Shown in pieces: positions 25,680-38,566 of a DNA stretch of 42,287 nt (positions within the stretch are counted from its first letter, which is position 1; every line of letters starts with the position of its first letter). Both the position numbers and the translations under genes were made by a program. The DNA is from an uncultured bacterium (GTDB lineage Bacteria > Bacillota_I > Bacilli_A > Acholeplasmatales > Anaeroplasmataceae): the NCBI GenBank assembly GCA_949292525.1, contig CASEZJ010000004.1, forward strand, positions 1-42,287, written 5' to 3'. The notes under the pieces are model-generated. The model had not been told where the DNA came from, did no database searches, and worked only from the letters and a program-made list of their open reading frames with translations.

Positions 25680-27329
25680 ATGATTGTTACAGTAAATGGA
25701 ACAAAAAAAGAAGTAAATGGTCCTATAAAACTACAAGATTTACTTGTAGCTAATGAAAAAAAGAAATACCAAGCCGCTAAGGTTAATAATCGTATTAGAG
25801 AATTAGGTTATATTTTAAATAACGATGCTGAAGTTGAATTTTTAGATTTAACGGACTCAGATGCGTGTCGTATTTATCAATCTACTCTTAGATACTTAAT
25901 TGTTATGACCGCTAAAGAATTATATCCTAATTGTCGAATTATATTTAATTATAGTATTTCTCGCTCAATTTTCGCTACTATAACGAACCTTAATCGCCCT
26001 TTTACTAAGAAGGACCTAGGAGCCATAGAGGAGCGTTTAAAAGCCATTATAGAGGCTGATATGCCTATAATAAGAAAAACTATAACTAAAGATGAAGCAT
26101 TAGCGTTATATGAAAAACAAGGCTATATAGACAAGGTTAAAATATTAAAGTATCGACCTGAAGAAACCGTACATATCTATGAATGCGGTGACTATAAAAA
26201 TTATATGTTTGGTTATATGTTACCTTCTACAGGCTATATAAATGAATATATTTTAAGGCTTTATACACCTGGTTTTTTAATTCAATATCCACGAGCTGAA
26301 ACAGGTGGAAAAATACCTAAATTTGAAGATGCGCCTGTATTTACTAACGCACTAAGGGAAGCTAATAATTGGGGTAATATTATTGAAGCTAGCTATATTT
26401 CACAAATGAATAATTTAGTTGAAAGTAAAGAAGCGTTAGAGTTTATAAACGTTTGTGAAACTAAGCATAATAATATGCTTGCTGAACTAGGAGAGAACAT
26501 AAAAAAAGCTATTGACGATATTAAATTAATCGCTGTAGCTGGTCCATCATCAAGTGGTAAAACAACATTCACTAATAGGCTTAGAATTGAGCTTATGAGC
26601 CGTGGAATTAAGCCTTTAATGATTTCTATAGACGATTATTATTTAGGCATGGATAAGGCCCCAAAAGATGAACATGGCAAACCTGATTTAGAACATATAG
26701 ATGCTTTAGATCGTGAGTTGTTTAACGAACATATGTATCGTTTAATTCAAGGTGAAGAAGTAACGTTACCACACTTTAATTTTGAAACCTCTTCAAGAGA
26801 AGTTGGTAAAACAGTAAAATTAGGTAAAAATCAACCTATTATGATTGAAGGTATTCATGCTTTAAATGATGAATTAACTCCATCAATTCCGTCACATCAA
26901 AAATATAGAATATATATAGCTCCACAAGCTCAATTACATATCGATGATCAAAATCCTATAAGCATATCTGATATACGTCTAATAAGAAGAATGGTTCGCG
27001 ATCATAACTATCGTAATTATGACTGTGAAAAAACATTAGCTATATGGCCATCTGTTAGACGCGGTGAATTTAGATGGATATATCCACACCAAGAAAAAGC
27101 CGATTATGTGTTCAACAGCGAACTAACATATGAATTATGTGTTATGAAAAAGTATGCATTACCATTGCTAGAAAAAATTGATTCTGCTAGTCCACACTAC
27201 ATAACAGCAAATAGATTAATCAAATTTTTGAAATATTTTAAAGATATAAAAGACCGTTGGGTTCCATGTAATTCATTGCTTAGAGAATTTATTGGTGATT
27301 CAATATTCTATACAGATGATTTAGATTAA
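25680..27329 (+). CDS. TGS-domain nucleoside kinase (uridine kinase-like)
   Basis: A 549-aa fusion. Residues 1-60 resemble a TGS/ubiquitin-like fold (MIVTVNGTKKEVNGPIKLQD), and the next ~200 residues resemble the threonyl-tRNA-synthetase second additional domain. The C-terminal half is a P-loop kinase of the uridine kinase/phosphoribulokinase family, with Walker A GPSSSGKTTF (about 287-296), then DDYYLGMD and IEGIHALND. This arrangement is common in Firmicutes as a putative uridine kinase. It likely phosphorylates a nucleoside; substrate is not established. Ribosome site GAAAGGA precedes the ATG. Confidence 0.88.
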   Translation: MIVTVNGTKKEVNGPIKLQDLLVANEKKKYQAAKVNNRIRELGYILNNDAEVEFLDLTDSDACRIYQSTLRYLIVMTAKELYPNCRIIFNYSISRSIFATITNLNRPFTKKDLGAIEERLKAIIEADMPIIRKTITKDEALALYEKQGYIDKVKILKYRPEETVHIYECGDYKNYMFGYMLPSTGYINEYILRLYTPGFLIQYPRAETGGKIPKFEDAPVFTNALREANNWGNIIEASYISQMNNLVESKEALEFINVCETKHNNMLAELGENIKKAIDDIKLIAVAGPSSSGKTTFTNRLRIELMSRGIKPLMISIDDYYLGMDKAPKDEHGKPDLEHIDALDRELFNEHMYRLIQGEEVTLPHFNFETSSREVGKTVKLGKNQPIMIEGIHALNDELTPSIPSHQKYRIYIAPQAQLHIDDQNPISISDIRLIRRMVRDHNYRNYDCEKTLAIWPSVRRGEFRWIYPHQEKADYVFNSELTYELCVMKKYALPLLEKIDSASPHYITANRLIKFLKYFKDIKDRWVPCNSLLREFIGDSIFYTDDLD

Positions 27330-27431: not shown

Positions 27432-27451
27432 TAGCATAAGAGGTGAAATAT

Positions 27452-28549
27452 ATGTCATGTTTAAACAACATTGATAGATTGCAAATAAGTAATGAAACCA
27501 TGATGAAACTTTTATCTTTATATGAATATAAAGGTAAGGATTATTATTTTGAAAATATATTAAAAGGTAGTTTACCACAAATAATAAAACAAACTATAGA
27601 AAGGGATACTTTCTATTTAGGGAAGATAATGAACTTAAATATAACGAATAATAGATTTAAATTAATAATAAAAAAAGAATCTACCCCTAAAACAAATGAT
27701 GAAAAAATACTCCTAAATTTAAAAAATATATTTAAAATTATAGCTGAGCAATCTGATAAATTAGAATTAACTAATAATGAATTTTTAAGATTAGCTATTA
27801 AAATTTATAAAGAAGTAACAAATATTCACTATGTGACCGATAATGTAGTAGTAAAAATTAACCTGTTAAACGAGAAAAAACAAGAATCTAGGCGTAAAAA
27901 AATAGATGAATTATTACAAATATATGTTAAATTACTTAACGGAAATAAGCATGAATTAACTCAATTAGTAACTAATTTTTACATAGATTTCATTAATATA
28001 AAGCCATTCAATGAAGGAAATGATGTAGTTGGTGTTTTAATTATTTATCTTTTACTACTAAAAGAACAGTTTAAAATGTTCCATTACGTTTCATTTTTTG
28101 AAATGTTATACGATGAATATGACAATTTTAAATCATTAGTAAATAAAGCCAATTTTAATTATGATGATGGATATAGTCAAACAGCACCACTAAATAATTT
28201 TATAATTGACATTTTAATAGATGGATATGCCAAAGTTGATAAATTAGCATCTGATACAAAATTTGATGCAAATATTACAAAAACATACAATATTGAAAAC
28301 ACAATTATGCGATTAGGTGAAGTCTTCACTAAAGAAGAAATCAGAGCAAAACATCCGTATGTAAGTTTATCTACAATTGATCGAACTTTAAAAAGAATGA
28401 GGGATGAAAATAAAATTCGTCCTAATGGTGTAGGTAGAAGTGCAACTTGGGTTAGAATATCAAATTACGAAAGGTTCGAACCAACATCAAATAGACAAAT
28501 GAGTCTATACGATATCATAATGAACAACGATAAAGAAGACGAGAAATGA
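27452..28549 (+). CDS. Degenerate Fic-like protein with winged-helix C-terminus
   Basis: A 365-aa protein laid out like Fic/DOC AMP-transferases with a C-terminal helix-turn-helix. The core block reads INIKPFNEGNDVVGVLIIYL (about 182-201), aligning with HPFxxGNGR: the catalytic His is Lys and the following Asn-Gly-Arg is Asn-Asp-Val. AMPylation is therefore unlikely. The N-terminal inhibitory-helix region (IIKQTIERD) is also altered. Residues about 285-345 form a winged helix (FTKEEIRAKHPYVSLSTIDR). It may act as a DNA-binding regulator. ATG 27452 is chosen over GTG 27443 because AGAGGTGA overlaps the latter. It is monocistronic, ending at a terminator beside the replication terminus. Confidence 0.8.
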   Translation: MSCLNNIDRLQISNETMMKLLSLYEYKGKDYYFENILKGSLPQIIKQTIERDTFYLGKIMNLNITNNRFKLIIKKESTPKTNDEKILLNLKNIFKIIAEQSDKLELTNNEFLRLAIKIYKEVTNIHYVTDNVVVKINLLNEKKQESRRKKIDELLQIYVKLLNGNKHELTQLVTNFYIDFINIKPFNEGNDVVGVLIIYLLLLKEQFKMFHYVSFFEMLYDEYDNFKSLVNKANFNYDDGYSQTAPLNNFIIDILIDGYAKVDKLASDTKFDANITKTYNIENTIMRLGEVFTKEEIRAKHPYVSLSTIDRTLKRMRDENKIRPNGVGRSATWVRISNYERFEPTSNRQMSLYDIIMNNDKEDEK

Positions 28550-28563
28550 TCTCGTCTTTTTTT
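28536..28563 (+). terminator. Terminator of the Fic-like gene
   Basis: A 9-bp stem (AAGACGAGA at 28536-28544, TCTCGTCTT at 28550-28558) followed by T through 28563. It spans the stop codon. Confidence 0.9.
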
Positions 28564-28792
28564 ATGCTAATTTATTTTTTGTAATGTCAAAGTTAAAAGA
28601 AGAAGAACAAGAAAAGTCAAAATGTAAAGTAAACTCAGAATCTATTTGCAGGAGCAAAATCGAGCAATCGAGATGTACAATTGGACAGTTTTGGTAATTT
28701 CGATTCGTGTTTAATACAAAAAAGTCTAGTAAAACATATTCAAATAGCACTAAATGAGTATGTTTAGCAAAAGAAGAAATAGCAATTTTCAC
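28562..28792 (-). CDS. Doubtful small ORF (76 aa), unknown
   Basis: A GTG-started frame with a good AAAGAGGGTG ribosome site 7 bp upstream. The product is 76 aa, hydrophobic at the N-terminus and with Cys and Ser near the end (SCSSS). No family is recognised and no clear promoter is seen. Its codons (CTC, CTG, TCG) are less typical than those of the neighbours. It lies opposite the local A-rich strand, which suggests chance opening or a decayed gene. Confidence 0.25.
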   Translation of the reverse strand: MKIAISSFAKHTHLVLFEYVLLDFFVLNTNRNYQNCPIVHLDCSILLLQIDSEFTLHFDFSCSSSFNFDITKNKLA

Positions 28793-30161
28793 TGATAAAC
28801 ACCCTCTTTATAGTGTTATGAAATTCTTTTCGGCATTATTTTTACCATTTTTAAATATCTAAATAACTTCCTATAATATATATTATGTTAACCATTAAAT
28901 TATATAAGAATGGTCTTGTAATTAGAGATATGTGGAAAAGTGGATTATGTATTGATACGCTATAATTCAAATTATTCATATTCTACGCATTTTCTTAAAA
29001 AATAAAAATCGAGCTTGTGAATTGCCAAGGTCATCGTTATTCGTTTTTTATATGAATTTTATATTTTAATTTTATTTTAAAAAAGTTTACACATTTTTTT
29101 GCATCAAATCTAGTTGTTAAGCATATCACATCTAGTATTTAAAACTAGATTAGTGCCGAAAATTTATTTTAATGACATCATATTATATAGGTCTATATGA
29201 CTTGTAATATTATATAGATATTAATGCTTTTACTGTTTATTTTATATAAGTGTTTTTTTTATTGATTGGTGTTTGATTTGTTAATTAATAATATTTTTCT
29301 TGTTATGTTTTTGTTTTTGAGGGCTGATATTTTAAAATAAATTTTTATTTTTATATGGTATATTGATTAGTTTTTAACTTTGACTAATTGCTTAAATTAG
29401 ATGCTTTGTACTCTTATTTTATTTCTGCTTTTTAAATGCTTTTGTAGTGTGTATAACATATATATCCATATGTGATACATTTAGTATTAAATGTTATTTA
29501 TGTTGTTAGTTTAACTTTGATCATTTTTACGTTTTTCTGTTTGCTTCTTGTTTTATTTTTTTCTTGTTTTGTAATTCTGCCATATATTTAAAAATTTATT
29601 TTCCTTGCTATGATAAAGATGACTAGTATAGAAATTTTAAAATTCATTTTTTTATTTTTTACATAGTTAGACTTTTATATTATATTGTTACTATTTGTAT
29701 ATGAATTTATATATTTTTTTGTTAGTAGTTTATTTTGTTTACCTTTTTAATATCCTAGCATTATATTTATCACGATTGGTAAAATTTATATAGGTTTTTA
29801 TGGCTATTCTTATTTTAGTATTAATATGATTATTAACTTACTATCTGCAATGCTAATAGATCTAATTAATAAATAGTTAAAGCTTATCTCTTCTTTTACC
29901 TTTATTTTTACAGACTTTAGTTTTGATTATTTTATGTTCCATATTTAAGAGACTTACTCATCTTTGTAGTCATTTATTTTAAATTTATTTATCAAAACAT
30001 TGTAAATATATATAATTACATTTTAATGTTTAATTTATATTTGCTTTACAAAAATAATTTAGTTATTAATCTTGTGTTAAAAACTAGATTATCAAATAAA
30101 TATATTCTTATATATGTTATTAATAACTATATCAAGTTTGAATTTTTGTTTTTTACACAAT
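28793..30161. other. Gene-free AT-rich terminus region
   Basis: About 1.4 kb with no credible coding frame or RNA gene. It contains the dif-like site near its left end. From about 29040 the plus strand is strongly T-rich, whereas the DNA left of dif is A-rich. It also contains two or three copies of an imperfect palindromic repeat (29130-29153, 30070-30091). GC is extremely low, suggesting spacer or decayed sequence. Confidence 0.6.
28866..28893. other. dif: dif chromosome dimer resolution site
   Basis: A 28-bp sequence with left arm ACTTCCTATAA, centre TATATA and right arm TTATGTTAACC. Compared with the Bacillus subtilis dif arms as I recall them (ACTTCCTAGAA, TATATA, TTATGTAAACT), 25 of 28 positions match and the central hexamer is identical. 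Xer recombinases act here to resolve chromosome dimers at the end of replication. It lies where gene orientation converges, 3.8 kb from a xer gene. Confidence 0.88.
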
Positions 30162-30218
30162 AAAAAAAGACAAATCGAATTTGTTTTTCCTTAGTGATTC
30201 TCTACTCGATTTGTCTTT
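30162..30218 (-). terminator. Large hairpin terminator downstream of the alcohol dehydrogenase operon
   Basis: 13-bp perfect arms (30166-30178 and 30206-30218, core GACAAATCGA/TCGATTTGTC) with a 27-nt loop, followed on the minus strand by a run of T (30162-30168). A shorter competing hairpin around TTCGA is possible. It lies 130 bp after the last gene; 30219-30348 shows nothing else clear except one repeat-like segment near 30290. Confidence 0.7.
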
Positions 30219-30348
30219 ACTTTTGTTCTATTTTTTTGTTTTTGCTATGGTTTTAAAAAAAATATTTAATAATTTATCATAGCGTTTAATATAGTTATTA
30301 AAACTAGGTTGCTTTTGAAATCTTTTATCTCTATATGATTACTTTATG

Positions 30349-31527
30349 CTATTCATAACAAGCATTAAGAATTTCTAAGCAGGCTTCATAATCTAATATA
30401 AATATGTCATCAATTGTTCTTTTACCACCAAATGTATATAGATTTGCAATATTAGGTAAATCAGATTTTTTAATACCAACTTCTTTTAATGTGGTTGGCA
30501 TACCAATTTCATGGAAATATGTTTTAAGCATTTGGATAGCTGTTTTAGCGGCAAATTCAGGTTTTATATTAGTTGATAAACTAAGACTTAAATAGCCTAG
30601 TTTTGCAAAAGGCATAGGGTTTATTTCAGCTGCTTTATTAGCCCATGCTGGCCATAATATTGCAAGGCCTGCACCATGTGCTACGTGGTCAAATAAACCA
30701 GATACAGCATGTTCCATTTGATGTACAGGCATTTGGTATTCTTTACCGCAGGCCGTTAAACCATTATGACTTAAACTTGATGCCCACATTAATGTAGCTC
30801 GTGCATTGTAGTTATTTGGGTCGTTATATGCTGTTTTACCAACTTCATAAACTGCTTTAATTAAACCATAGGCTAGGTTATCTGTTAGCGGATTATATGT
30901 GTTATCATATGATAATACTCTTTCAAGAGTATGCATCATTATATCAACAATACCACAAGCGGTTTGATATTTAGAAACACTATATGTAAATTTAGGATTA
31001 CATATTGCAAATAAAGGACGATTAAATTCTGAACTGAAACCTCGTTTATCATTTAGGCTATCATTTGTAATTACACACGAATTTGACATTTCACTACCAG
31101 CTGCTGAAATAGTTAATATTACACCTACAGGTAATGATTTTTCTAATTTCTTTTGTCCACTATTATAAACCCAAGGGCTTTCATTTATATAAAATCCTGC
31201 TGCTATACTTTTGGCTGAATCTATTACAGAACCACCACCAACAGCTAAAATGAAATCTATATTAGTGTCCTTTGCTAGTTTTACTCCTTGTTCTACTAAG
31301 CTAAGTTTAGGGTTCGCTTCTACGCCGCCTAATTCAATATATTCAATATTATTGTTTTTTAATTCATTAATAACAAAATCATAAAGTCCGATTTTTTTAA
31401 TTGATTCTTTTCCGTAGTGGAATAATATTTTTTTAAAATTATATTCTTTTAAAATGGCCCCTAATTTTTTTTCAGCATCTATCCCAAAGAAAACTTTAGT
31501 TGGGGTATTATAAATAAAGTCTCTCAT
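30349..31527 (-). CDS. Iron-containing alcohol dehydrogenase
   Basis: A group III (Fe-dependent) NAD(P)H alcohol dehydrogenase, 392 aa, closest in layout to butanol/aldehyde-type BDH enzymes. The nucleotide-binding block is AVGGGSVIDSAKSIAAG (about 95-111). Metal ligands lie in MPVHQMEHAVSGLFDHVAHG. It follows deoB after 1 bp as the last gene of a five-gene operon. Reduction of acetaldehyde from deoxyribose breakdown would link it to DeoB, but no deoC is present here, so this is inference. Confidence 0.93.
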   Translation of the reverse strand: MRDFIYNTPTKVFFGIDAEKKLGAILKEYNFKKILFHYGKESIKKIGLYDFVINELKNNNIEYIELGGVEANPKLSLVEQGVKLAKDTNIDFILAVGGGSVIDSAKSIAAGFYINESPWVYNSGQKKLEKSLPVGVILTISAAGSEMSNSCVITNDSLNDKRGFSSEFNRPLFAICNPKFTYSVSKYQTACGIVDIMMHTLERVLSYDNTYNPLTDNLAYGLIKAVYEVGKTAYNDPNNYNARATLMWASSLSHNGLTACGKEYQMPVHQMEHAVSGLFDHVAHGAGLAILWPAWANKAAEINPMPFAKLGYLSLSLSTNIKPEFAAKTAIQMLKTYFHEIGMPTTLKEVGIKKSDLPNIANLYTFGGKRTIDDIFILDYEACLEILNACYE

Positions 31528-31528
31528 T

Positions 31529-32704
31529 TTATAGCTCCTTTAAAAATGATTTGCCGATAGGTTGAGGTTTTAATTTAAAGTTTTCGTTAATTGTTTGACC
31601 TAAATCGGCAAATGATGTTCTTAAACCAAGATTTTTACCTTTAATTTTTCTATTATAAGCAAATATAGGAACCAACTCTCTTGTATGATCTGTACCATGC
31701 CATGTCGGATCATTACCATGATCAGCTGTAATTAATAGTAAATCATCGTCATTAAGCAATGGCAATAATTTAGTTAAATCATAATCAAATTCCTCTAAAG
31801 CTTTTTTATAGCCTTCAGGATTTCTTCTATGGCCATATAAGGCATCAAAATCGACTAAATTTAGATAACATAAGCCTTTGAAATCTGTCTTAGCAATATC
31901 TTTCATAATTTCCATTCCGTTATGATTAGAAACCGTTTTATAGGCTTTAGTTATACCACAGCCATTGTAAATATCATTAATTTTACCAATGCTAATTACA
32001 TCATAACCACTTTCTTTTAAATAATCTAATGTAGTTTCGTGAGCTGGTGATAAAGCATAATCATGTCGATTAGGTGTTCTGACAAAATTATCTTTATTAG
32101 TACCAACAAATGGTCTAGCTATTATACGTCCTACTTTCCACTCTGGTTTCATACAAATCTCTCTAGCAATTTTGCAGCAACGATACAATTCATCTAACCC
32201 AAATACTTCCTCATGACAGGCAATTTGTAAAACACTATCAGCAGATGTATATACTATCATAGCCTTAGTTCTAAGATGCTCTTCACCAAGTTCTTTAATT
32301 ATTTCAGTGCCACTTGCAGCACAGTTACCAATTACTTTGTGACCTGTTTGTTTTTCTAATTCTGTAATTAATTCTTTAGGGAAACCAGTATCAGTAAATG
32401 TTTTTAAAGGTTTTGTTGTTAATACTCCCATAAATTCAAAATGCCCGGTTAAAGTGTCTTTACCAACACTAGCTTCTTGCATCTTGCCATAACAAGCCAC
32501 TGGATTAGTATTAGGGTTAACACCTTTGATTTTAGTTAAATTCCCATAACCAAATAGTTGTAGACATGGTAATTTAATACCATTACATGCATCAGCAATA
32601 TGACCAATAGTGTTTGCACCATCATCACCATAATTTACACTAGTAGGATCACTACCACATCCTACAGAATCCATTACAATAGTAAATATTCTTTTAAATT
32701 CCAT
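31529..32704 (-). CDS. deoB: Phosphopentomutase
   Basis: Interconverts (deoxy)ribose-1-phosphate and 5-phosphate in nucleoside salvage. Alkaline-phosphatase superfamily metal motifs are IVMDSVGCG (start), DDGANTIGH, the catalytic loop GKDTLTGH, and TADHGNDPTWHGTDHTRE. At 391 aa it is full length. It overlaps the recombinase gene by one base and is followed after 1 bp by the alcohol dehydrogenase. Confidence 0.96.
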   Translation of the reverse strand: MEFKRIFTIVMDSVGCGSDPTSVNYGDDGANTIGHIADACNGIKLPCLQLFGYGNLTKIKGVNPNTNPVACYGKMQEASVGKDTLTGHFEFMGVLTTKPLKTFTDTGFPKELITELEKQTGHKVIGNCAASGTEIIKELGEEHLRTKAMIVYTSADSVLQIACHEEVFGLDELYRCCKIAREICMKPEWKVGRIIARPFVGTNKDNFVRTPNRHDYALSPAHETTLDYLKESGYDVISIGKINDIYNGCGITKAYKTVSNHNGMEIMKDIAKTDFKGLCYLNLVDFDALYGHRRNPEGYKKALEEFDYDLTKLLPLLNDDDLLLITADHGNDPTWHGTDHTRELVPIFAYNRKIKGKNLGLRTSFADLGQTINENFKLKPQPIGKSFLKEL

Positions 32705-33618
32705 TATTCTTTTTCCTCCTTTTTTAATGGATGCGTATTTTGATAAATTTCTTTAAGTTTAGTTTTATCGATATGTGTGTATATTTGAGTTGTTGAAATA
32801 TCTTCATGGCCTAATAATTCTTGAACAATTCTTAAACTAGCCCCATTAGCTAATAAATGGGTGGCAAAACTATGTCTAATTGTATGTGGTGAAATAGTTT
32901 TATCAATACCAGCTTCAAGAGCTAAATTCCTAATATATTTAAAAAAACCTTGACGTGACATTTTTTCACCTTTGTAATTATAAAACAATAAGGATCCTGG
33001 CTTTTTACTAATGTTAGAACGTGAATTTTCAATATAATCTCTAAGTGCAATTATTGCCATATCTCCTAGCGGAATAATCCTTTCCTTATTTCCTTTACCA
33101 ATTACACTTAAATATTTCTCATTCATATGTAAAGAACTTATTTTTAAATCAAGTAATTCAGAAATTCTTAAACCTGAACTATATAACAATTCTAACATTG
33201 CTTTATTTCTTTTACCAATGTCTGTCGATAAATCTATTAAGCTTAACATTTTAGAAATTTCTTCTTCAGTTAAAACTGTAGGCAAATGAATATCTTTTTT
33301 AGGCATATCAATATAATAGGCTACATCTTCTTTGCTAATTTGTTCATTACTCAAAAATTTATGGAATGCTTTAATCGTAACTATTTTTCTAGCTATTGTG
33401 GTTTTAGCTAAATTAGCTCTTTTTAAAGATGCAATATATTTTAAAATCATTTCCTTATCAATATCTCTTACATCTTCAATATGTTGATATTTAATTAAAA
33501 ATTCTTGATATTCTAGAAGATCATTTCTATAAGCAATAATAGTATTTTTACTTAATCTTTTTTCATCTTCTAAATAATATATAAAATCAGTTATTTCATA
33601 AAATTTAATTTCTATCAT
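32704..33618 (-). CDS. Tyrosine recombinase XerC/XerD
   Basis: Site-specific recombinase resolving chromosome dimers at dif. Residues 8-95 form the SAM-like N-terminal domain. The catalytic set is complete: Arg151 (GLRISELL), Lys175 (GKGNKER), His245 and Arg248 (HTIRH), His271 (LLGHEDIS) and Tyr280 (QIYTHID). The 304-aa length and the RIVQELLGHEDISTTQIYTH block fit chromosomal XerD/XerC better than phage integrases. It overlaps hemW by 4 bp. The dif-like site 3.8 kb away is its probable target. Whether a second Xer partner exists elsewhere cannot be seen. Confidence 0.93.
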   Translation of the reverse strand: MIEIKFYEITDFIYYLEDEKRLSKNTIIAYRNDLLEYQEFLIKYQHIEDVRDIDKEMILKYIASLKRANLAKTTIARKIVTIKAFHKFLSNEQISKEDVAYYIDMPKKDIHLPTVLTEEEISKMLSLIDLSTDIGKRNKAMLELLYSSGLRISELLDLKISSLHMNEKYLSVIGKGNKERIIPLGDMAIIALRDYIENSRSNISKKPGSLLFYNYKGEKMSRQGFFKYIRNLALEAGIDKTISPHTIRHSFATHLLANGASLRIVQELLGHEDISTTQIYTHIDKTKLKEIYQNTHPLKKEEKE

Positions 33619-34700
33619 ATAAATTCCTCAAATACCAGATTAGCTAACATTAAACCTTTACTTGTCAATTTGATTATGTTTTCATCTTCATATAAAAGTT
33701 TATAATCAAACAATTTTTGATAATTAAAATCATCGTTAGGATAAGAATTAAATCGCTTAAAATAGTCTTTTTTTGTAATCCCATCAACTTTTCTTAAGCC
33801 TAAGATTAAATATTCTTTTTTCTCATCTTCTTCATTTAAGTTTTCTACTTCTTTATCTACATTATTTAAATATTTATATAGGAATTTAGAATTTGTAACC
33901 CGCTTATGACCAAGGTATGAACATGCCCCCATACCAACACCTATATATTCTTCCTTAGACCAATATTTAAGGTTATGTAGGGATTTATAATTAGGCTTAG
34001 CATAATTAGATATTTCGTATTGAATAAATCCTAATTTAGTTAATTCAGCTGATATATATATATTCATATCAGCAATTAAATCTTCATCTAATTCAGAAGC
34101 CTTATGATTTCTATTTAGTAATGTTTCTTTTTCTAAGATTAAACTATATGCAGAAACATGTTTAATGTCTAATTCTTTAATAAATGCAATATCTTCTTTA
34201 ACAACATCAAGAGTTTGATTAAAATAGCCATATATTAAATCAATATTGATATTCGTTATTCCATTATCTTTTAATAATTTAACAGACTTTAGAACATCTT
34301 CTTTGTTATGATGTCTATTTAATAATTTTAAACCATTTTTATCAGTTGTTTGCATACCTAAACTAACCCGATTAATTTTGTATTTAGCAAATAACTTAAC
34401 CTGTTCTAAAGTAATTAGTTCCGGATTTAATTCAATAGAATATTCTTTAAAATTAATCTTTAAACTAGCGATAAAACTTAATAGTCTTTCTAAATTATAT
34501 AAATCAAGATAATTAGGCGTTCCTCCACCAATATAAATTGTATCGATATTTTTAAAATATATTTCATAACTTCTAATTTCTGCAATTAATTTATCAATAT
34601 ATTTATTTACTTCTTCTTTTGAAAATGGAATCCGTTTAGGAAAATCGCAATATGAACAGATGTGAGCACAAAAAGGAATATGAATATATAAACCTAACAT
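33615..34700 (-). CDS. hemW: HemW-like radical SAM protein
   Basis: A radical SAM protein, 361 aa, of the HemN/HemW group. The 4Fe-4S motif is C-x3-C-x2-C (Cys11, Cys15, Cys18 in IPFCAHICSYCDF). IYIGGGTPNYL follows, and LNPE and VSLGMQTTD are family blocks; the C-terminal HemN domain is present. HemW proteins are now viewed as heme chaperones rather than coproporphyrinogen oxidases; no other heme genes are in the window. Starts 1 bp after the MBL gene. Confidence 0.92.
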   Translation of the reverse strand: MLGLYIHIPFCAHICSYCDFPKRIPFSKEEVNKYIDKLIAEIRSYEIYFKNIDTIYIGGGTPNYLDLYNLERLLSFIASLKINFKEYSIELNPELITLEQVKLFAKYKINRVSLGMQTTDKNGLKLLNRHHNKEDVLKSVKLLKDNGITNINIDLIYGYFNQTLDVVKEDIAFIKELDIKHVSAYSLILEKETLLNRNHKASELDEDLIADMNIYISAELTKLGFIQYEISNYAKPNYKSLHNLKYWSKEEYIGVGMGACSYLGHKRVTNSKFLYKYLNNVDKEVENLNEEDEKKEYLILGLRKVDGITKKDYFKRFNSYPNDDFNYQKLFDYKLLYEDENIIKLTSKGLMLANLVFEEFI

Positions 34701-35754: not shown

Positions 35755-35775
35755 AAAAAGGGATTACTCCCTTTT
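35755..35775 (-). terminator. Terminator of metN-metIQ
   Basis: An 8-bp stem (AAAAGGGA at 35756-35763, TCCCTTTT at 35768-35775) followed on the minus strand by TTTTTATTTT. It overlaps the stop codon. Confidence 0.85.
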
Positions 35776-37321
35776 ACGAAATATGGCTAACAAAATATGG
35801 TTTAATAGTACCCATAAATTCTTCTTCTATAAAGTTTGCGGTTTTATCACTTGTTAAAACATTAATTAACTCTTTAAGCCAACTAGCATTCTTATCTTCA
35901 TCTCTACATGCTAATATATTGGCATTTATATGATTAGGATCTGCTTCTTCAAAAATCAATTCATCATTGCTAAGGCCTGCATTAATAGCAAATGTGGCAT
36001 TAACAATGCCTAAATAACAATTTGAATCATTTAAAGCTTCGGCAATACTTGAAGTTGCCATAGGAGTGATGATTAAATTTTCATAACCGGGTAATAATTC
36101 ATAATAATTAAGAATATCTGTAGCAGAAAAGCTTGTAGTATCACCATAAGTTGTTCTTATAATATTATTTGCAGCTAATAAATCTAAACATCTTTTTAAA
36201 TTTGAACTATCATTAGCTATGGCAATAACTTTCTTTTCATTTCCTCTTAAATCATTTATTTCATCTATCTTATATGAATATGCCCCATAAACACAATCAT
36301 ACATTGTACAGGCATTAAATAAATTGGTATTATGTGATTCATTATAACTTATTAAATATGGTTCATGTTGGAATAAATTAACATCAATTGAACCATCAAC
36401 AAGGGCATTATTTAAAGGATCAAATTCACTATAAATTTCAATTTCTAATTTATAACCTAAATCTGCCATTTCATCTTTAATATGGTTGAAAATTGGTTCA
36501 CCAGGTTCACTCATTGTACCAACTTTAATAGTTACTAAATTAGTTTTATTAGAAGCGTAAACTGCAATTTTAACACCGATAAATGTTAATAATAAAACAC
36601 CTAAACCAATACCTATTTTTATATAGGTTAAATGGCCATTTTTGGCTAATTTATATAATATATTACCACATAATTGAATAAGCAATACTAATATTATTAT
36701 TGTAATTACCGCAAATAACATCATTTCAAAGTCATAGGAAATATAGCCTTTATCATAAGCAAAAAATCCTAGTCCACCGCCTCCTATTGCCCCAGCCATA
36801 GCACTATAACCAATTAAAGTTATAATAGCTAAAGTTGTGCCTGAGATAATTGATGGTAAGGCTTCTTTTAAAATGATTTTTGTGGTTATTTGTCTTTTAC
36901 TTAAGCCTAAAGCTTCTCCGACTTCGACAATATCTTTATTTGTTTCTTGTAAACTATTTTCAAAAAGTTTAGCAAAAAAAGGTATAGCAGCAATCGTTAA
37001 CGGAACGATAAAAGCACTAGTCGAAAATGCTTGTCCAACTCCAGTTAAAATTTTCATTATAATTCTTGTAAAAGGTATTACAAAAAACATTAATACATAA
37101 AACGGGAATGATCTAACAATACCTATTAAAATATCTATAATTTTATATAGAATTCTTATTCCTTTTCTTTTTGAACGCTTAGTATAAAATAAAACTAGAC
37201 CTAAAAGTAACCCAAAAACTAAGGCTATTAAAACGGTTATAAATACCATTTCAACTGTTTCGCCTAAATACTTAGGTAAATCGTTATATATATATTCTTT
37301 TAATTTATCTAGAAATGTCAT
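35774..37321 (-). CDS. Fused methionine ABC permease and substrate-binding protein (MetI-MetQ)
   Basis: A 515-aa fusion. Residues 1-225 are a MetI permease with about five helices and the coupling loop EVGEALGLSKRQITTKIIL. A further helix (about 235-255) then anchors an NlpA/MetQ-type solute-binding domain (about 265-515: TIKVGTMSEPGEPIFNHI, DVNLFQHEPYL, with the family's usual NDSSNLKRCLDLL). It therefore replaces both the permease and the lipoprotein of standard MetNIQ. It overlaps metN and is under a methionine T-box. Confidence 0.92.
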   Translation of the reverse strand: MTFLDKLKEYIYNDLPKYLGETVEMVFITVLIALVFGLLLGLVLFYTKRSKRKGIRILYKIIDILIGIVRSFPFYVLMFFVIPFTRIIMKILTGVGQAFSTSAFIVPLTIAAIPFFAKLFENSLQETNKDIVEVGEALGLSKRQITTKIILKEALPSIISGTTLAIITLIGYSAMAGAIGGGGLGFFAYDKGYISYDFEMMLFAVITIIILVLLIQLCGNILYKLAKNGHLTYIKIGIGLGVLLLTFIGVKIAVYASNKTNLVTIKVGTMSEPGEPIFNHIKDEMADLGYKLEIEIYSEFDPLNNALVDGSIDVNLFQHEPYLISYNESHNTNLFNACTMYDCVYGAYSYKIDEINDLRGNEKKVIAIANDSSNLKRCLDLLAANNIIRTTYGDTTSFSATDILNYYELLPGYENLIITPMATSSIAEALNDSNCYLGIVNATFAINAGLSNDELIFEEADPNHINANILACRDEDKNASWLKELINVLTSDKTANFIEEEFMGTIKPYFVSHIS

Positions 37322-38294
37322 CTCTTCTTTCCCCCTTTACAATAAGTTCATATTTAACATCAGTTTTATTAATATAACTTAAAACATTAATGAAATCTTT
37401 ATCTTTAACATTAATAACTAGACTACCAAGAACATCATCACCAAATTTTTCTAGTTTTCCCCACACTATATCAAAATCGATGTTTAAATCACGAGCCATT
37501 TTAGTAATTAATGATTCACTAGCTGATTTTTTAGGGAATATTAATTTAATATTTTTACCATTCAATGGTACAATTGGTTTTTCAGATATTAAAGTTTCTA
37601 AAGCTTTATTTTTATATAAGAATATATCTTCAGTCTTACCTATTTCTAATATTTCTCCTTTGTTTATAATTGCTACTCTATCACAAATATATTTAACAAC
37701 TTCCATTTGATGAGTAACCATAACGATTGTTATTTTTAATTCTTTATTTATTTTCTTTAAAATATCTAGTATTTGAATAGTTGTATTAGGATCAAGAGCA
37801 CTTGTCGCTTCATCACAAAGTAATATTTTAGGATTTAAGGCTAAAGCTCGCGCAATCGCAACTCTTTGACATTGACCACCTGATAATGTTGTTGGTAATG
37901 AATTTAATTTATCGGTTATACCTGTGATTTTTGCTAGTTTTAGAACTTTTTCTTTTATTTCCTTCTTTTTATAATGTCTAGCTTCAAGTGGTAAGGCAAT
38001 ATTTTTATAGACACTTTGAGTGTTTAATAAGGCAAAATGTTGAAAAATCATTGCTACTTTTTGTCTATAATTTGCTAAATCTTTACCATTTAAATTACAT
38101 ACATTGTCGCCATCAACTAAAATTTGTCCGTCATCTACTTCTTCAAGCTTATTAATAGTTCTTAATAAAGTTGATTTTCCAGCTCCACTAGGACCAACAA
38201 GGCCAAATATTTCGCCATCAAAAATTTCTAAATTAATATTTTTTAAAGCTACTAGTTCACTATACTTTTTTACTACATTTATAAATCGTATCAT
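37305..38294 (-). CDS. metN: Methionine ABC transporter ATPase
   Basis: ATPase of methionine uptake, 329 aa. Walker A GPSGAGKST (34-42), Q-loop MIFQHFALL, signature LSGGQCQR (about 138), Walker B LLCDEATSALD. The C-terminal ~90 residues are a NIL domain, the methionine-sensing regulatory domain of MetN. Start at 38294 follows the strong TAAGGAGGT (38300-38308); longer readings would run into the T-box terminator. It overlaps the metI-metQ fusion by 17 bp. Confidence 0.95.
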   Translation of the reverse strand: MIRFINVVKKYSELVALKNINLEIFDGEIFGLVGPSGAGKSTLLRTINKLEEVDDGQILVDGDNVCNLNGKDLANYRQKVAMIFQHFALLNTQSVYKNIALPLEARHYKKKEIKEKVLKLAKITGITDKLNSLPTTLSGGQCQRVAIARALALNPKILLCDEATSALDPNTTIQILDILKKINKELKITIVMVTHQMEVVKYICDRVAIINKGEILEIGKTEDIFLYKNKALETLISEKPIVPLNGKNIKLIFPKKSASESLITKMARDLNIDFDIVWGKLEKFGDDVLGSLVINVKDKDFINVLSYINKTDVKYELIVKGERRDDISR

Positions 38295-38311
38295 TTTGTA
38301 CCTCCTTAAAC

Positions 38312-38560
38312 AAAAAACAGTTCCATCCCTAAAAGGACGAAACTGTAAAATTCGTGATACCAACCTTAATTCATCAATATAAAAATTGACCTATTTTCAA
38401 GTACTAACATACTCTATCGCTATAAGAGGCGAATCCTCATATAACCTACATATTGGCTATATTACTCCAAGACCATGTTCGCTTAGTTTTCCTTATCTAG
38501 TTACACCTACCCTAGACTCTCTAAAAATTACTAGCTAAGTTACTCTTCTTTTCTTCGTTT
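38312..38560 (-). ncRNA. Methionine T-box riboswitch
   Basis: A leader on the minus strand ahead of metN. Its 3' half has the T-box core AATTAAGG followed by TTGGTATCACG (38353-38371), where UGGU can pair with an ACCA tRNA end. A 12-bp terminator (38318-38346) and T run (38312-38316) follow. Upstream, stem I shows CTTAG/CTAAG pairing, a distal hairpin TCTAG/CTAGA, and a specifier loop GAACATGGTC whose codon ATG (38474-38476) fits tRNA-Met. Uncharged tRNA-Met should allow read-through into the transporter. Confidence 0.93.
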
Positions 38561-38566
38561 GTTAAT

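Follow-up and report, generated by a model that had tools for sequence, protein, structure and literature searches.

The xerD gene and the dif site lie close together in a linkage that recurs in most families of a bacterial class and is apparently undescribed, while the site itself is an ordinary dif. The DNA analysed here is a stretch of 42,287 nucleotides (the window) from an uncultured bacterium of the Anaeroplasmataceae (order Acholeplasmatales). An original prediction, made from this stretch by itself, had placed a Bacillus-type dif at the replication terminus and remarked on a recombinase gene nearby. It is the closeness of xerD and dif, more than the dif itself, that is the notable part of the result. 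A literature search turned up no text that describes linked xerD and dif in a bacterium with two recombinases, some key older papers being outside its reach.

A pattern search of the window found the dif-like 28-mer ACTTCCTATAATATATATTATGTTAACC at 28866-28893 (+), where the original prediction had put it. For the B. subtilis dif, which has been confirmed by experiment, PMC3025954 gives ACTTCCTAGAATATATATTATGTAAACT; relative to this the window 28-mer has the three differences counted originally, namely T for G at position 9, T for A at position 24 and C for T at position 28. The plan is also that of B. subtilis, with two 11-bp arms and a 6-bp centre (11+6+11), and there is partial dyad symmetry (18 of the 28 positions agree with the reverse complement). 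We took the roles of the XerC-side and XerD-side arms from PMC5357621 and PMC2731167 and assigned ACTTCCTATAA and TTATGTTAACC to them, respectively, on the model of the dif sites of B. subtilis and E. coli. The site is intergenic and, as had been claimed, falls between convergent genes, inside a gap of 1.8 kb (28550-30348). The features of the region are:

27443-28549, + strand: gene for a conserved 368-aa protein, first gene left of dif, with a faint Fic/DOC-like stretch (PF02661, 24.9 bits)
28532-28564, + strand: terminator-like hairpin after the left gene, AAGACGAG...CTCGTCTT and then a T run, as read from the sequence
28866-28893, + strand: dif site
28866-28876: left arm of dif, ACTTCCTATAA, putative XerC side
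28877-28882: centre of dif, TATATA
28883-28893: right arm of dif, TTATGTTAACC, putative XerD side
30349-31527, - strand: iron-containing alcohol dehydrogenase gene (PF00465), first gene right of dif, a neighbour at genus/family level only
31529-32704, - strand: deoB, phosphopentomutase (NF003766, 557.8 bits), directly downstream of xerD, between xerD and dif
32704-33618, - strand: xerD, 304 aa (TIGR02225 equivalog), 3.8 kb right of dif
33615-34700, - strand: hemW (TIGR00539, 269.5 bits), directly upstream of xerD

The search pattern was a near-consensus 28-mer, which the window site matched with two mismatches. At ≤3 mismatches, 100 shuffles of the window gave zero matches and the window dif was the sole match in its own 1.24-Mb assembly (60 contigs, 92% complete); the genome-wide search that had been proposed as a check thus returned no equally good site elsewhere. 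A reversed control pattern gave 0 matches across the same assembly. Within the order, the pattern search found one dif-like match each in 36 of 41 genomes, and a looser local scan recovered a variant in a 37th (G021). In five congeners the 28-mer is 99% identical to that of the window, compared with a median of 64% for 28-base windows within ~300 bases, and nothing else in its surroundings is as well conserved. Comparison of 62 dif sites drawn from many families shows no variation at positions 8-12 and 17-22; the outer left arm and positions 24 and 28 do vary. This is much like the pattern in Proteobacteria, where the inner arms of dif are conserved and the outer parts variable (PMC2731167).

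Elements that exploit Xer recombination carry dif mimics, and extra dif-like copies do occur in two relatives (G067 and G053), so that the 28-mer might be read as the attachment site or remnant of such an element rather than as the chromosomal dif. We rejected this candidate on the single copy of the 28-mer; moreover, no element adjoins it and its place at the terminus is conserved across the order, which makes an element-borne origin hardly credible.

The window dif also coincides with a switch in strand composition. In the 10 kb to its left the GC skew is +0.17 and the AT skew +0.08; in the 10 kb to its right the values are -0.13 and -0.09. A skew extreme far from the site had been named as evidence that would speak against a terminus, and none was found: over the 42-kb contig on which the skew of this 60-contig assembly was read, the cumulative purine excess peaks at 28785, 81 bp from dif, and cumulative G-C peaks at 29803. 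We also sampled two (near-)complete relatives in 20-kb pieces. In G038 (one contig, 1,877,792 bases) dnaA is at 0.4 kb and the homologous dif at 970 kb; in G039 (main contig, 1,456,175 bases) they are at 1,084 kb and 387 kb. The distance from dnaA to dif is 48-52% of the chromosome in these two genomes, and the GC and AT skews both flip sign at dif. These positions opposite dnaA are those expected for dif. The single copy, the skew switch, the conservation in relatives and the position antipodal to dnaA in the complete relatives together place the window dif at the replication terminus, in support of the original prediction.

The recombinase gene 3.8 kb away proved to encode a protein that passes the XerD equivalog cut-off (TIGR02225, 352.3 bits, cut-off 329.6), the score against the XerC model being 307.9 bits (TIGR02224, cut-off 335.15). 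Almost the full length of the product aligns to E. coli XerD (1a0p; E=3.9e-55), and the catalytic residues R151, K175, H245, R248, H271 and Y280 are present and invariant in 22 relatives. A search for a second Xer gene, suggested with the original prediction, identified an XerC-like recombinase elsewhere in the genome, on contig C18 and unlinked to dif; its best match is XerC, at 317.8 bits, 17 bits under the curated threshold of 335.15. A second Xer recombinase is also encoded in nearly every relative. The XerC gene and dif are separated by 486 kb in G038 and by about 575 kb in G039. There is one FtsK with alpha, beta and gamma domains (PF01580, PF17854, PF09397). By these matches, the genome encodes XerD, an XerC-like protein and a gamma-domain FtsK, which are all the parts of the canonical dimer resolution system.

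Linkage of a recombinase gene to its site is a feature of single-recombinase systems, and XerD might therefore serve the window dif alone, in the manner of XerS, XerH or XerA. This we consider very unlikely given the second Xer recombinase in this genome and nearly all its relatives, and given a dif with the 6-bp centre and unequal arms of two-recombinase sites rather than the long centre of difSL. An XerS/XerH-type system was rejected on the second Xer gene and on the score of the window XerD against the XerS model (111 bits, cut-off 267). The original prediction had held an XerCD-like protein near dif to be of interest, such coupling being more typical of XerS and XerH. The interest is borne out, as the linkage is conserved far beyond this genome; the closeness is, however, no pointer to a system of the XerS/XerH type. 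We conclude that 28866-28893 is almost certainly the chromosomal dif of a canonical two-recombinase (XerCD/FtsK) system.

Binding of XerC and XerD, the order of cleavage and the dependence on FtsK at the window dif are presumed from known systems, and the working scheme is adopted from E. coli and B. subtilis. In brief, recombination between sister chromosomes would leave a dimer, the terminus of which FtsK would pump to the septum; XerC would sit on the left arm and XerD on the right arm of both dif copies; and the gamma domain of FtsK would turn XerD on, leading to strand exchanges and to monomers. The activation by FtsK is not certain here, since the translocases of B. subtilis do not directly activate the recombinases (PMC5357621). 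As to additional XerD half-sites near dif, which could have a role in SMC unloading, ATTATGTTAAC at ≤1 mismatch gave 2 matches versus 4.2 expected, one of them being dif itself. A search for RNA families found none in the gap around dif.

Within the order (Acholeplasmatales, judged from the closest named record), 34 genomes have xerD and dif on one contig, and in all 34 the spacing is 1.5-8.3 kb, dif is downstream of xerD, and xerD is on the strand opposite to the ACTTCC.. reading of the site. Two other genomes have xerD and dif on separate contigs and one has dif with no XerD-grade hit. Four incomplete genomes (G005, G006, G010 and G016) have neither dif nor an XerD-grade hit, a joint absence that would be expected if one stretch were missing; they may lack the terminus contig or may have lost dif and xerD together.

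We then took the class as a whole, sampled as 149 genomes, of which 75 have dif and xerD on one contig. Sixty-one of these 75 pairs are within 10 kb, in 12 coded families. In every one of the 61, dif follows xerD on its downstream side with a constant relative orientation, across a gap of 0.6-9.9 kb. In families f15, f16, f20, f23 and f24, dif is 36-236 kb from xerD; f7 is mixed, and two among the mycoplasma-sized families (f8 and f18) gave no XerD-grade hit. The 'phylum' sample consists of members of this same class only, and the outer limit of the linkage rests on named loci. Among the matches listed, the named loci with dif <6 kb from xerD are L121 (Acholeplasmataceae UBA6150, with an XerD 90% identical to that of a same-order genome), L143 (Erysipelotrichaceae) and several uncultured Bacilli. 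For named loci outside class-like Bacilli, among them those of Gracilibacillus (L123), Fructobacillus (L128) and Aerococcus (L164), the flanks of the matches listed showed no generic dif, several of the contigs being too short to inform. The placing of xerD beside dif is an old arrangement of the class that most families retain and a few have lost; it is not the sign of a single-recombinase system.

The genes around the pair are less constant. The order and families f7, f9 and f19 share the layout dif <- (variable genes) <- deoB <- xerD <- hemW <- LepA-type gene; families f11, f12, f13, f14, f17 and f21 have different genes beyond xerD and beyond dif. We examined the neighbourhood in 50 genomes drawn from the linked ones, so that the counts show which neighbours besides xerD persist and not the persistence of xerD itself. 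deoB is near dif in most, though not all, linked genomes, and in 8 of the 50 xerD is near dif without deoB. hemW neighbours xerD/dif in 7 of the 13 families examined, and the gene for the 368-aa protein is just left of dif in 6 of 13. An apparent absence of xerD from G011 and G138 was an effect of the ORF filter; the gene is present there. Families f16 and f24 have an unbroken hemW-xerD-deoB run but a dif 51-90 kb away, and thus the operon and the linkage to dif come apart.

Two accounts of the linkage can be weighed. On the XerD tree there are 3 changes of the linked label versus 6.8 for shuffled labels, which indicates only that the label follows descent, since near-copies make such clustering easy. 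Linked genomes occur throughout the tree, as would be compatible with a single old arrangement that was lost three times. On balance, we lean towards passive inheritance, in which the xerD-deoB operon would have lain near dif by chance in the ancestor of the class and, so near the terminus, short distances would seldom be broken. In keeping with this, deoB, for which no function at dif is known, accompanies the pair in most genomes, and the linkage is dispensable, as seen in the five families with a distant dif. Less easily accommodated are the turnover between families of hemW, of the gene left of dif and of the genes beyond xerD, and the genomes with xerD near dif but no deoB (the 8 of 50 above, chosen from linked genomes).

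It is quite possible, though we would not call it probable, that the linkage has instead been selected. XerD could be made close to its site; xerD could be copied last, its dose then following replication of the terminus; or enzyme and site could co-evolve and move as a unit, as in XerS/difSL and XerH/difH, single-recombinase systems in which the same closeness is seen (PMC2731167, PMC5357621). Selection would fit the uniform orientation of the 61 close pairs, and also a gap that stays at 0.6-9.9 kb while the genes within it differ between families. It would likewise fit the loci at which dif is flipped relative to the neighbouring genes yet still 3' of xerD (L148, L154 and probably L161). A shared orientation is, however, also expected from one inherited arrangement and does not separate selection from common descent; furthermore, XerC, which is equally needed, is never near dif, and five families do without the linkage. 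Rather more tentatively, we suggest that in most families of this mollicute-related class selection may keep a cis-linked xerD-dif unit within a two-recombinase system, XerD being supplied from beside its own site.

At L148 and L154 the gene order around the flipped dif is kept. The flip at these two loci (and probably at L161) suggests a move of the block to the other replichore, with the polarity of dif unchanged.

The B. subtilis system, with CodV (XerC) and RipX (XerD), resembles that of the window in its 28-bp site (3 differences), its two recombinases and its terminus position. The window xerD is 3.8 kb from dif, whereas a long distance separates ripX from the B. subtilis dif. The dif/XerC/XerD/FtsK system of E. 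coli shares the site plan, the recombinase pair and the gamma-domain FtsK; it differs in the sequence of the left arm, and the window differs from it in having xerD linked to dif. A recombinase gene near its site is known from XerS/difSL of streptococci (PMC5357621) and XerH/difH of campylobacters and helicobacters (PMC2731167). Those systems use one recombinase, with xerS immediately beside difSL (PMC5357621, PMC2731167), whereas the window has two recombinases, a canonical dif and a looser 3.8-kb spacing with deoB and the alcohol dehydrogenase gene between. The predicted dif sites of Sulfolobus are similarly close to xerA (PMC2958812), in a crenarchaeal system with a single, archaeal recombinase. 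The linkage of xerD runs against published pictures, in which canonical dif has no apparent specific genetic environment and the recombinase genes of classical systems are scattered (PMC2731167); according to PMC3025954, most xerC genes are near dif and most xerD genes near the origin.

If a selected, cis-linked xerD-dif unit were real, it would add a third kind of arrangement, intermediate between XerCD genes that are scattered and single recombinases that are linked to their sites. Linked and unlinked families with the same enzymes offer a natural comparison of whether the place of a recombinase gene relative to its target matters, which bears too on whether linkage preceded single-recombinase modules. 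The dif site also provides a landmark of the terminus in Acholeplasmatales and in uncultured bacteria related to them, and helps to orient fragmented genomes.

Some minor observations concern additional dif-like sites and the wider window. An f6 genome carries two identical dif-like sites, inverted and ~100 bases apart (G053:C101:6475-6625). G067 has two near-perfect and four weaker dif-like sites on contigs C4, C13, C15, C17 and C19, perhaps on Xer-using elements or plasmids. In the window, the 368-aa protein (27443-28549) shows weak similarity to two functionally uncharacterised phage families. The second gene left of dif (25680-27329), which has this position in f1, f4 and f5, encodes a 549-aa uridine-kinase-like protein with a ThrS-like N-terminal part. 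Methionine ABC transporter genes at 35774-38564, in which a single 515-aa frame combines the permease and the binding protein, are preceded by a T-box leader (38330-38564, - strand).
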